Source of the DNA: Brevundimonas sp. NIBR10
GTDB taxonomy: Bacteria > Pseudomonadota > Alphaproteobacteria > Caulobacterales > Caulobacteraceae
Reading direction: 5' to 3'
DNA length: 64,000 nt
NCBI RefSeq assembly: GCF_027912515.1
Contig: NZ_CP115464.1
Location: 1,240,001 to 1,304,000 of the forward strand
Shown piece by piece: positions 1,949 to 27,274 of the stretch. Every line of letters begins with the position of its first letter. The stretch's first letter is position 1. The notes under the pieces are model-generated. The model had not been told where the DNA came from, did not search any database, and saw only the letters and a program-made list of their open reading frames with translations. A program made the position numbers and the translations under genes.

Positions 1949-2527
1949 GTGAGAACCCTGTCCCTTAGACCCATATTGCTGGCGGCCACAGCGGCCCTGG
2001 CCCTGTCGGCCTGCGCCACGGCGACCCCGTATCAGCCGGCCGGCACCGGCGGCGTGCGCGGCGGCTATGCCGAGCAGCGGCTGGAGAGCGACCGTTTCCG
2101 CGTCACCTTCGCCGGCAACTCCGTGACCTCGCGCGAGGACGTCGAGATGGGGCTGCTGCTGCGCTCGGCCGAACTGACGACCCAGAACGGCTTCGACTGG
2201 TTCGCCACCGTCAACCGCGCCACCGATCGCGACACCCGTTATTCCAGTTTCGGATCGCCCCGACCCGGGTTCGGCTACAGCCCCTATTACGGCCGCTACA
2301 GCCCGTTCTGGGGCCCGTCGTGGCGCTGGTACGGTCGCGGGTCTTGGAGTTCGTGGAACGACCCGTTCTGGGGTCGCGACGACTTCGACGTCCGCCAGAT
2401 CGACCGTTACGAAGCCACGTCCGAGATCGTCATGGGCAAGGGCCCCAAGCCCGCCAACGACCCCAACGCTTTCGACGCCCGCGAAGTGATCGACAACCTC
2501 GGCGGCCGCGTCACCCGCCCGATGTAA
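1949..2527 (+). CDS. Lipoprotein, CC0125/CC1285-like family
   Basis: I chose the GTG at 1949 because AAAGGAG (1934-1940) sits 8 nt upstream. From there the protein is 192 residues and opens with a lipoprotein signal ending in LSAC, so Cys about residue 21 is the lipidated residue. The middle is rich in Tyr, Gly, Trp and Pro (GYSPYYGRYSPFWGPSWRWY), and the end reads DAREVIDNLGGRVTRP. The lipobox and this C-terminus resemble a lipoprotein family of Caulobacterales named after CC0125/CC1285; that assignment is from memory. Function unknown; envelope location is likely. Confidence 0.8.
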   Translation: MRTLSLRPILLAATAALALSACATATPYQPAGTGGVRGGYAEQRLESDRFRVTFAGNSVTSREDVEMGLLLRSAELTTQNGFDWFATVNRATDRDTRYSSFGSPRPGFGYSPYYGRYSPFWGPSWRWYGRGSWSSWNDPFWGRDDFDVRQIDRYEATSEIVMGKGPKPANDPNAFDAREVIDNLGGRVTRPM

Positions 2528-2683: not shown

Positions 2684-2691
2684 GAAGGAAA

Positions 2692-2788
2692 AGTAGAGAC
2701 CGCGACCCGAAGGGGAATTCGTTGTGGCTGCTGCCTTCCGGCCCTGACCAGGTTGGCGAAGCCTTCGCCCGCGATCTCCGAGGTCCAT
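2692..2788 (-). ncRNA. ffs: Signal recognition particle RNA (4.5S, small bacterial type)
   Basis: Read on the minus strand the sequence contains TGGTCAGGGCCGGAAGGCAG followed by CAGCC, the conserved helix 8 tip that binds the Ffh M domain. The flanks pair over a long stem (GAGATCGCGGGCGAAGG with CCTTCGGGTCGCGGTCTC). The 3' side runs into a T-rich tract (CTTTTCCTTCCTT), fitting an intrinsic end near 2692. The ends are estimated from the pairing. The RNA forms the SRP with Ffh and targets nascent membrane proteins. Confidence 0.92.
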
Positions 2789-5015: not shown

Positions 5016-6316
5016 AGCACCGGGCGGTACTCAAGTCGGATTTCGCCATCGTCCCCGAGCCCGGGCGCTACCTGGGCAGGCCATTGGCAAACTGCGGAGG
5101 CGGTCGCCCCATTTATGACCGTGCGGGAAATCGCGTTCGCCCGGTTGGCCCGGTAGACCTTTAGACGGGCGGTTATCTGGTCGTTTGTCGGTTCGTGCTC
5201 GAATATCTCAATCGTTGCTCGCTCTGCGCAGTTGAACGCGTCGAGAAACCAACTTCCTTCCAAGCTGCCAGCCGTGCCGTGCCGGGTCAGTTGATAAGCT
5301 TCAAGTCGTGCCGGCTCGCCGTCGATCACCAACGTCTTCAAGCTATAGATGTTCGGAAAACTCTGTCTTGGTCGATCAATAATCACCAAGGTCGCAGTGT
5401 CCAAAGGGCGGGTCTCGATATTTCGCGTTTCAAAGTTTGCCTTGGTCTTCAGCGCGGCCAGTGACGCCGCCGCTAGGGCGGTGCGCGCCATAGCAGCTTC
5501 ATCGGGACGGCTCAAAGCGTTCAGAGCGGCGATCCGCACCAGTTCGCCGTAGGCACCGATTGGATAGGGCGGAGGGCTTGGCACCGGTTCCATCAGGGCC
5601 AGGGCCAGGCCACCGTCACCGTCTGCGAGTGCCAGGGTCGCGCGCATCACACGGGCGTGCCATGCGCGTTCGTCCTGTCCACACAGGGCGATAATGCGAT
5701 CGGCCGCCAGGGCCGCACCCACCCTGTCGTTCCGGCCCATGCGGCGAGCCGCGTCGGACCAGAGGGACTCGACCGCCGCACATTCGCTGATCGACTGGGG
5801 ATCGACTGGAGGCGGGCCGGCCTGAGCGGATTCCGCCATCTGCGCCCTCAACGCGACGGCGCTGGGCAGCAGGTCGATATAGGCGGCCGGCGACCCGCAG
5901 ACCTGGCCACCCATCGCGGGCTGGCCGAGGATCACGGTGAAGGCGCACAGATCCAGTCGACGGGCCTCGGTATCGCTGACGCCGGGATCGGCGTGCTGGG
6001 CGTAGATCAACGACCCGGGCCCGCCATTGACCCCCGGCACATAGATGGGCTGGGTCGTGGTCTTCATTTGCCCGGCCTGAGCCCTCAAGCCTTCGGCGCG
6101 GATCGGGTCGCGGGTGACACCGCGCAAGCCGTGTGCGGCGAGAAACGACACGGCGTACTGTGCCTGGCGATCGCCCGTGGCGGCCCGCGTCTCCAGCGCA
6201 TCGACAGGCTCGGTCATAGCCATTTTGAGGGGCAGATTGCGCGTCACAGGATCGACGACGGTCACACAGCCCGCCGTCATCATGCAGCCCAAAATCACAG
6301 CCGCGAACTTTTTCAT
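5012..6316 (-). CDS. Putative lipoprotein with a Sel1-like segment
   Basis: I start it at the ATG at 6316, giving 434 residues. The N-terminus MKKFAAVILGCMMTAGC is a lipoprotein signal with the lipidated Cys at about residue 17. Residues ~40-75 (ATGDRQAQYAVSFLAAHGL) resemble one degenerate Sel1 repeat; the rest matches nothing I recognise. Upstream in-frame codons run into antisense recF territory and look like shadow. The gene sits on the opposite strand between dnaN and recF, and its second half is somewhat less GC-rich than its neighbours, suggesting a later insertion. Function unknown. Confidence 0.72.
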   Translation of the reverse strand: MKKFAAVILGCMMTAGCVTVVDPVTRNLPLKMAMTEPVDALETRAATGDRQAQYAVSFLAAHGLRGVTRDPIRAEGLRAQAGQMKTTTQPIYVPGVNGGPGSLIYAQHADPGVSDTEARRLDLCAFTVILGQPAMGGQVCGSPAAYIDLLPSAVALRAQMAESAQAGPPPVDPQSISECAAVESLWSDAARRMGRNDRVGAALAADRIIALCGQDERAWHARVMRATLALADGDGGLALALMEPVPSPPPYPIGAYGELVRIAALNALSRPDEAAMARTALAAASLAALKTKANFETRNIETRPLDTATLVIIDRPRQSFPNIYSLKTLVIDGEPARLEAYQLTRHGTAGSLEGSWFLDAFNCAERATIEIFEHEPTNDQITARLKVYRANRANAISRTVINGATASAVCQWPAQVAPGLGDDGEIRLEYRPVL

Positions 6317-10933: not shown

Positions 10934-11009
10934 ACGGTCGCTGAATTTCGCCCCGCCACAGTGCAAACAAATTTCGTGACATGCCGCGAAGCTTGAGTAG
11001 TCTGACGTA

Positions 11010-11045
11010 GTTGCGTTCTCGCAACCTTGAATGGGGGACTACCTA
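11010..11045 (+). promoter_or_regulatory. Structured 5' leader: hairpin plus GGGGGACTACCT (copy 1)
   Basis: GTTGCG-TTCT-CGCAAC (11010-11025) forms a perfect 6-bp hairpin. Seven nucleotides follow, then GGGGGACTACCT (11033-11044), one base, and the ATG of the acidic exported protein. The G-run can serve as ribosome binding site 8 nt from the ATG. The same layout with the same 7-nt spacing and a different hairpin sequence precedes another small exported protein gene near 27.2 kb, so this looks like a shared post-transcriptional control element. Inferred, not known. Confidence 0.55.
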
Positions 11046-11366
11046 ATGAAGCTCTTGAAGACCTCATCCGCCCTGGCAGTCGTGATGCTGCTGGGCGCCT
11101 GGACCTCGGCGGCCGACGCCGACGTGGTCATCGTCAACGACGACGCACCCGCCTGGGTCGCCGGCATGGCTGACATCGCCGACGGCTCCGCTCCGGCCTT
11201 CCAGGACGCTGAAGACGACGACGAGTGCGACGACGAAGAGGATGACGAGGAAGACGACGAAGAAGACGACGAGGAAGAAGACGACGAAGACGAAGAGGAC
11301 GACGAAGAAGACGACGAGGACGAGGAAGACGACGAGTGCGAGGACGACGAGGACGAACTCGTCTGA
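11046..11366 (+). CDS. Small exported protein with an extreme Asp/Glu tract
   Basis: 106 residues from the ATG at 11046; an ATG at 11031 lies before the ribosome site and is disfavoured. Residues 1 to ~25 (MKLLKTSSALAVVMLLGAWT then SAADA) form a signal peptide. After a short segment (VVIVNDDAPAWVAGMADIAD) the last ~53 residues are almost only Asp and Glu, with two Cys in DDECDDEE and DDECEDDE bracketing the tract. Such chains are disordered and bind Ca2+ or other cations, which is inference here. No family recognised. It has a strong terminator downstream. Confidence 0.8.
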   Translation: MKLLKTSSALAVVMLLGAWTSAADADVVIVNDDAPAWVAGMADIADGSAPAFQDAEDDDECDDEEDDEEDDEEDDEEEDDEDEEDDEEDDEDEEDDECEDDEDELV

Positions 11367-26816: not shown

Positions 26817-27170
26817 CTATTCGGCGTAGAAGCCCTCGTCCGTGACGTAGACGTCCTCGATCTCGCAGTAGTCGATGGTCTCGTAATATTCGGTCCCGTC
26901 GGCCATGGTGACCTTGGTATTGTATTCGCATTCGTCTTCGGAATCGAAGAACCGCATATCGACGTCGTCGCCCTCCTCCAGCACCCGCGTCGGGATCCAG
27001 TCGTTGCTCCACGACCCGTTGGTCCGGGCGGTCTGGAAGGTCAGGACCGTCTGGCTGGAGGCGTTGTACAGGGTAAAGGTGTAGTCGTCGCCGTCCGGCT
27101 CGGCCGACGCCGCGCCGCCGACGCATGCCAGAAGGGCCGCGCCCGCAAGGGCGCCGATCATGGTTCTCAT
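26817..27170 (-). CDS. Small acidic exported protein, two Cys
   Basis: 117 residues from the ATG at 27170; earlier in-frame starts lie before the ribosome site. Residues 1 to ~23 (MRTMIGALAGAALLACVGGA then ASA) are a signal peptide. The mature protein is acidic (FFDSEDECEYNTKVTMADGT, YCEIEDVYVTDEGFYAE) and probably beta-rich, with Cys in DECEY and DYCEI that could form a disulfide. No family recognised. Its leader matches the leader of the Asp/Glu-tract protein at 11.0 kb, suggesting common control. It has its own terminator. Confidence 0.78.
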   Translation of the reverse strand: MRTMIGALAGAALLACVGGAASAEPDGDDYTFTLYNASSQTVLTFQTARTNGSWSNDWIPTRVLEEGDDVDMRFFDSEDECEYNTKVTMADGTEYYETIDYCEIEDVYVTDEGFYAE

Positions 27171-27205
27171 AAGGTAGTCCCCCGCTACGCCGGTGACGAT
27201 CACCG
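27171..27205 (-). promoter_or_regulatory. Structured 5' leader: hairpin plus GGGGGACTACCT (copy 2)
   Basis: On the minus strand CGGTGA-TCG-TCACCG (27205-27191) is a perfect 6-bp hairpin. Then come 7 nt (GCGTAGC), GGGGGACTACCT (27183-27172), one base, and ATGAGA. The layout is base-for-base that of the leader at 11010-11045, while hairpin and spacer sequences differ. This points to selection on structure plus the G-run. Confidence 0.55.
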
Positions 27206-27274
27206 ATTGATAGCGAGGGGATTAAGCCGACGAACCCTGTGTTCCGTCAACGAAAATCAGGCTTTACGGCCCGA

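Follow-up and report, generated by a model that had tools for sequence, protein, structure and literature searches.

Hairpin and G-run leaders in a multi-copy family of small exported-protein genes of Brevundimonas

With a short leader in which a stem-loop at the 5' end is followed by a strong Shine-Dalgarno site, the ompA and papA messages of Escherichia coli and the aprE message of Bacillus subtilis are the closest described counterparts of the leaders considered here, and this layout has been published, in the available excerpts of the two reports, as an mRNA stabiliser (PMC7509114, PMC3997798). The excerpt of one of these reports also describes a B. subtilis message in which a stem-loop placed too near the Shine-Dalgarno site lowered stability (PMC7509114). 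As excerpted from a further report, the small RNA GsrN of Caulobacter pairs with the G-rich leader of katG and activates this gene, and GsrN homologs occur in Brevundimonas (PMC5869019).

Here, we analysed a stretch of 64,000 nucleotides from Brevundimonas sp. NIBR10 (contig NZ_CP115464.1, positions 1,240,001 to 1,304,000; hereafter the window), in which two genes, designated A and B, are each preceded by a hairpin and a G-run. As with ompA, papA and aprE, the leader is short, a stem-loop stands at what is here the predicted 5' end and a strong Shine-Dalgarno site lies downstream (PMC7509114, PMC3997798, in the excerpts available), and as with ompA, the gene served codes for an envelope protein. 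In contrast to these three, the hairpin often abuts the ribosome site, the stabiliser role is a prediction, and the layout recurs across an entire set of paralogues within a single genus. The initial annotation of the window knew of no described element of this form; the claim that there is none is too strong, given the published layout of ompA-type stabilisers in the excerpts at hand (PMC7509114, PMC3997798). Within the reach of our search wording, no title among the open-access literature listed concerned a Brevundimonas leader of such form. The element is real and conserved within a single genus, and we regard it as most suitably classed with the known 5'-terminal stem-loop leaders, as a variant of them.

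Genes A and B and their leaders

On the forward strand, leader A reads GTTGCG (11010-11015), TTCT, CGCAAC (11020-11025), CTTGAAT, GGGGGACTACCT (11033-11044), A, and ATGA from 11046; on the reverse strand, leader B reads CGGTGA (27205-27200), TCG, TCACCG (27196-27191), GCGTAGC, GGGGGACTACCT (27183-27172), T, and ATGA from 27170. Both layouts are as first annotated, with stems that are unlike in sequence yet form perfect 6-bp hairpins, each followed by 7 nt, the 12-mer GGGGGACTACCT, 1 nt and ATGA. Our reading of the translations also agrees with the earlier description of the products as small acidic exported proteins with two Cys: both begin like a signal peptide, and the two Cys fall within the mature part. 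The features are collected in Table 1.

Table 1. Features of the two leaders and their genes, with a candidate small RNA gene located elsewhere in the genome. Positions refer to the window unless stated otherwise.
Feature	Position	Strand	Basis
Predicted -35 box of gene A, GTGACA	10976..10981	+	Sequence; TGACA starts 33 nt 5' of the hairpin in A and in its G282 relative
Predicted -10 box of gene A, TAGTCT (TAATCT in the relative)	10998..11003	+	Sequence, inferred
Leader hairpin A, GTTGCG-TTCT-CGCAAC	11010..11025	+	Sequence, folding; kept in the G282 relative
7-nt spacer A	11026..11032	+	Sequence; 6 nt in the G282 relative
GGGGGACTACCT of leader A, G-run Shine-Dalgarno-like site and downstream spacer	11033..11044	+	Sequence, motif scans
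Gene A, 106-aa exported-looking Asp/Glu-rich protein P0001	11046..11366	+	Translation
Possible -35 box of gene B, TTGACG	27245..27250	-	Sequence, inferred; 44-45 nt 5' of the hairpin
Possible -10 box of gene B, CTTAAT	27221..27226	-	Sequence, inferred; alternative GCTATC at 27214-27209
Leader hairpin B, CGGTGA-TCG-TCACCG	27191..27205	-	Sequence, folding
7-nt spacer B	27184..27190	-	Sequence
GGGGGACTACCT of leader B, G-run Shine-Dalgarno-like site and downstream spacer	27172..27183	-	Sequence, motif scans
Gene B, 117-aa exported-looking protein P0002, multi-copy genus family	26817..27170	-	Translation, homolog searches
GsrN-like candidate	L116, starting at about base 5920 (close to C1:251,919 of the genome)	+	Place, promoter, C-run; no alignment

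The C-terminus of the gene A product is made of about 48 Asp and Glu residues interrupted by two Cys (11208-11363, forward strand). Searches of Pfam and NCBIfam gave no match above cut-off for the proteins of genes A and B, and the proteins of two further loci, L042 and L117, had no Pfam match. P0002 has no sequence relative in the PDB; its structure model is a small beta-sandwich with a mean pLDDT of 74, for which the fold search returned a single match below E 0.001, the uncharacterised protein 2mca (TM 0.52). The open reading frames next to gene A, recognised by eye, we take to be rph and pnp, and those next to gene B are presumably metK and trmB.

Across the 131 genus genomes searched, gene A has one close relative (G282, 97%) and one weak match among the 130 others, and matches to gene B were found in 69 of the 131, many of them in several copies. 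Nearer relatives of P0002, at 74-89%, were obtained as proteins only, and a scan of contigs gave four loci in the 47-53% tier. One of seven protein relatives of gene B is named Brevundimonas sp., and the named loci of the wider family include Brevundimonas assemblies.

Taken one leader at a time, folding energies are ordinary, with z values of -1.14 for A and +0.81 for B. Predicted folds of leader A and of its relative contain an additional pairing of the G-run with CUACC, and a pseudoknot between loop and G-run, judged by eye only, fits A and does not fit B. Four leaders were searched against Rfam 15, and none had a match even with E values of up to 1 allowed; the sole Rfam match above cut-off in the window is a small SRP RNA (2689-2782, reverse strand). 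Neither hairpin is an intrinsic terminator: what comes next is in each case a short spacer and then the G-run, with no run of T. Elsewhere in the window, a lipoprotein-like gene (1949-2527, forward strand) repeats this layout, except that its ribosome site is an ordinary one: the stem-loop GGCCCG-TGAC-CGGGCC abuts AAAGGAG.

The 12-mer and the ribosome site

Exact matches to GGGGGACTACCT number two in the window, and the whole genome of 4,006,378 bases has the same two. When two mismatches were allowed, the window again held two matches, which is not above the 4.9 expected in shuffles. An exact copy occurs in 27 of 249 genomes of the bacterial family, this one included. Thirty of the 31 places listed in the family were fetched, two of them being the window's own, which left 28 other loci. 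Among these, 25 lie inside a long open frame, and an ATG in a real frame follows 12-23 nt downstream at one only (L009, with an exported-looking protein). Since these other loci fall mostly in open frames and the family leaders keep the G-run only, the 12-mer was rejected as a shared signal.

The leader of the G282 relative bears on the same point. It retains the stem, as GTTGC-GTTCGA-GCAAC, together with the 12-mer, and it has 6 nt instead of 7 between hairpin and 12-mer and 2 nt instead of 1 ahead of the ATG. Thus, the spacing is not fixed. Overall, what is conserved is the layout and neither the 12-mer nor the distance, and a fixed 12-mer and spacing are not supported as the signal. Because the frame shifts between 12-mer and ATG in this relative, a coding reading of GGGGGACTACCT, which gives G-D-Y-L in frame upstream of both ATGs, is likewise unsupported.

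The shorter word GGGGGACTA with an ATG within 8 nt was found six times in the genome as against none for the reversed control. Five of the six sites precede exported-looking products, recognised by a signal peptide or, in one case, by a TonB-receptor Plug domain: gene A, gene B, a gene B paralog (C1:3158394), an unrelated 162-aa protein (C1:8364) and a TonB-dependent receptor (C1:836944). The last of the six, with an intracellular-looking product, overlaps another gene's end. At four of the five exported genes, a hairpin lies 2-7 nt ahead of the G-run, the receptor being the one without a hairpin that close; this receptor gene (L299) has the start GGGGGACTACC ATG. These site counts suggest that ribosome sites spelled in this way are found preferentially at genes for exported proteins. 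GACTACC, also tried as a general ribosome-site word, showed no excess ahead of ATG (12 matches, and 10 for the reversed control). The identity of the 12-mer in A and B would reflect a common ribosome-site spelling and no separate recognition element, and is a side issue here.

Hairpins in the leaders of gene B's family and beyond

Fifty leaders of gene B's family were read, and 39 were kept once near-duplicates had been removed. With a qualifying hairpin defined as one that ends within 10 nt upstream of the ribosome site, 25 of these 39 non-redundant leaders have a hairpin, where 200 shuffles averaged 5.5 and never exceeded 12. At the three stem-score limits applied, 25, 23 and 15 leaders pass; the shuffles averaged 5.5, 3.0 and 1.2 at these limits, with highest values of 12, 8 and 5. 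Examples of the family stems are GCCGAC-ATGCC-GTCGGC, GCTGAC-ATTTC-GTCGGC, GACGTCG-CAT-CGGCGTC and CGCGGGC-ATTCC-GCCTGCG. As a genus background, non-exported genes with their own leader were sampled from three Brevundimonas genomes, and 101 of 602 had a hairpin (31/239, 30/178 and 40/185 per genome at the first stem limit). Gene B's family stands far above this background (Fisher p 3.6e-10), in a comparison where background gene starts came from our simple caller and family starts were picked partly by ribosome-site quality. The background itself reaches 1.4 to 2 times the shuffles (about 60 expected for the 101 of 602), so that hairpins before ribosome sites appear as a mild general habit in the genus.

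Once the leaders of gene A and of its relative were added, those with a called hairpin numbered 47. The hairpin ends 0-9 nt before the ribosome site in 42 of them and further away in five; in 32 of the 47 the gap is 0-4 nt. Ribosome sites of the GGGG type occur in 28 of the 39 family leaders versus 32 of 260 leaders of the NIBR10 genome (G000), G-run counts being inflated by the choice of starts. Two variants were noted within the family. In the gene B paralog L097 (C1:1402929), the ribosome site lies, by eye, apparently inside a small hairpin, GGGT-GGA-ACCC, and in loci L050-L064, which form the GGGAGAGGAAACAATG subfamily, a longer inverted repeat, built around ATCGCG...CGCGAT, lies at a greater distance upstream of the ribosome site.

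Covariation was assessed in nine leaders that were chosen by similarity, aligned without gaps over the 23-nt hairpin and trimmed to it, a selection that favours structure. In this alignment, 84% of the cells pair, compared with 27-47% in slid registers, and both sides have changed at six of the nine pairs, a number not attained in any of 500 shuffles. Two of 500 shuffles attained the covariation score of 0.42, and further pair types were not above shuffles (92 of 500 reach the number). Among stems of gene B's family with exactly one mismatch, the odd pair is G-U in ten cases and A-C in two (p 0.04), and ordinary G000 leaders gave 6 versus 7. An earlier, looser count stood at 12 G-T and 2 A-C, of which one case of each was judged spurious. 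The second family described below, taken alone, showed no G-U bias (1 and 1). The preference for G-U over A-C, together with the covariation, indicates that pairing is kept as RNA, not as a DNA palindrome; in gene B's family, the pairing of the hairpin is under selection as RNA.

Two other G000 genes, from an unrelated exported family, show the same layout. A second, unrelated exported family, of 162 aa, has matches in 113 of the 131 genus genomes; 29 of its 30 leaders were kept as non-redundant, and hairpins are present in 10 of the 29, where shuffles averaged 2.9 and did not exceed 8. Leaving out the member that led to its discovery, the count is 9 of 28 (p 0.07 versus the genus background), so the excess of the second family above that background is only suggestive. 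Among small exported genes, hairpins were found in 6 of 19 in G000, three of which are leaders discussed here, in 4 of 14 in G305 (1.3 expected from shuffles) and in 3 of 17 in G286 (2.0 expected). For large exported genes, two other Brevundimonas genomes gave 5 of 23 and 4 of 17 (shuffles 2.6 and 1.4), and their non-exported genes, at 30 of 178 and 40 of 185, compare with shuffle values of 19.1 and 19.5. Exported genes at large are thus not clearly different from non-exported ones, given the hairpins that the latter reach, and a general exported-gene feature was rejected. The 171 places in the genome where GGGGGA precedes an ATG were also considered: 100 were listed, 70 loci were examined and 49 rows were kept, of which at least 13 have a hairpin, at least four a signal peptide and at least three both.

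Outside the genus, a hairpin was present in 1 of 17 leaders of gene B relatives, compared with 1.4 in shuffles. The element is specific to Brevundimonas and has its centre in the family of gene B. Of the shared structured leader initially annotated for A and B, the structure has stood, being enriched and covarying in gene B's family and kept in the gene A relative, while the fixed 12-mer and spacing have not. Copies in related genomes, proposed at the outset as a check, follow the same division: hairpin and G-run recur in most family leaders of the genus, whereas the 12-mer does not, and outside the genus the hairpin is missing.

Interpretation of the leaders

The position of the hairpin within the message was approached through promoter-like elements. 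In all 12 close relatives of gene B (L039-L046, L093, L091, L092 and L094, which belong to one related subfamily and are non-independent), TTGAC begins 36-39 nt upstream of the hairpin, as against 3 of 276 ordinary leaders with TTGAC in a comparable span. More broadly, one of five -35-like words lies at 33-39 nt in 14 of 31 leaders, a set picked for having a hairpin. The -35 box of gene A was called from the promoter consensus, and its predicted -10 box lies 16 nt past this -35 box and 6 nt ahead of the hairpin. In ordinary promoter geometry, such -35 distances put the hairpin at about +1. The TTGAC and TGACA distances would therefore place it there, and the predicted transcription start coincides with the hairpin or lies no more than about 10 nt from it. 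Gene B itself does not fit these distances, its box giving a predicted start about 8 nt ahead of the hairpin.

With a probability of roughly one half, we interpret the leaders as a 5'-terminal stabilising stem-loop joined to a strong G-run Shine-Dalgarno site, comparable to the leader of ompA. The 5' untranslated region would consist almost wholly of the terminal hairpin, a short single-stranded spacer and the G-run. By keeping the 5' end base-paired, the hairpin may slow decay that depends on this end, through pyrophosphate removal and RNase E entry; the exposed G-run would recruit ribosomes, which could protect the rest of the message. The combined effect would be long-lived and well-translated messages for small exported proteins, and the hairpin would be free to drift in sequence because only its pairing matters. 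The gaps of 0-4 nt counted above tell against a stabiliser, since a stem-loop lying too close to the ribosome site made the B. subtilis message less stable. The arrangement also differs from thermosensors and riboswitch platforms that mask the Shine-Dalgarno site: the hairpin is near the ribosome site and ends before the G-run. The leaders do not fit masking of this kind, the ribosome site lying outside the hairpin, with the 0-9 nt interval seen in 42 of the 47 leaders.

That the leaders share nothing beyond an ordinary ribosome-site spelling and chance hairpins is rather unlikely. GGGGGA is frequent in the genome with an ATG 3-10 nt downstream (171 versus 46 in the reversed control), leaders of the genus have a general excess of hairpins (101/602 against about 60) and single-leader folding energies are ordinary. 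Yet gene B's family lies far above both shuffles and genus background and covaries, and for this family the chance reading is already disfavoured. Another reading is a DNA operator, in which the inverted repeat would be bound by a repressor at the transcription start. The repeat does sit just past the predicted promoter, but its arms vary between leaders while the pairing stays, and one-off pairs on the message strand are G-T, not A-C, which leaves this reading highly improbable. Control of translation by a protein that binds the loop, whose five bases often read A-Y-N-Y-C, is also very unlikely. Read as pentaloops, 28 leaders have A as first base in 17, T as second in 16 and C as last in 20; these leaders were, however, picked for having a hairpin, which makes an arm-permutation figure from them circular, so that it was set aside; their agreement is largely between relatives, and the A-Y-N-Y-C loop is absent from gene A (TTCT), its relative (GTTCGA), gene B (ATCGT), L047, L096 and L107-L110.

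Regulation by a C-rich small RNA of the GsrN type is unlikely, though it has several points in its favour. The hairpin would present the G-run as a target, and translation of an envelope regulon would be switched on or off. As with the katG target of GsrN (PMC5869019, as excerpted), the leader is G-rich and the bacterial family is the same, and a GsrN-like candidate is present. In this genome the candidate has six tandem C and a sigma-EcfG-like promoter and lies about 1.7 kb from nepR. G-runs are favoured in the family leaders, and the predicted duplex with the GsrN-like loop has a median of -16.1 in these leaders, compared with -10.9 in ordinary ones, whose best tenth reaches -16.6. However, any C-run pairs with a G-run, the family median is what G-runs alone would give, and the loop used for the whole family was that of G000 only. 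Ordinary leaders equal or beat the pairing of A in 20% of cases, of B in 17%, of the third copy in 29% and of the C1:8364 gene in 37%. Moreover, GsrN targets the katG message at its first seven nucleotides, according to the available excerpt (PMC5869019), whereas here the target would be the ribosome site. Two other Caulobacter small RNAs, ChvR (PMC6237742) and RusT (PMC11005374), are not linked to a G-run in the excerpts available. A wider proposal is a cis-acting RNA element restricted to the genus, which would have spread among small exported proteins from several unrelated families and would be read as an envelope regulon by a dedicated RNA-binding protein or small RNA. This element would combine a stem of free sequence, often an A-Y-N-Y-C pentaloop, and the G-run ribosome site; we regard it as distinctly unlikely.

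Should the stabilising stem-loop reading be true, gene B's family would offer a natural set of many paralogous leaders, showing which parts of a stabilising 5' hairpin are selected. In Caulobacter crescentus, a relative, a Shine-Dalgarno site is found at only 24.6% of coding sequences, as stated in the excerpt available (PMC4117421). On the same reading, the leaders could serve in Brevundimonas and Caulobacter as ready-made parts with which to express exported proteins stably.
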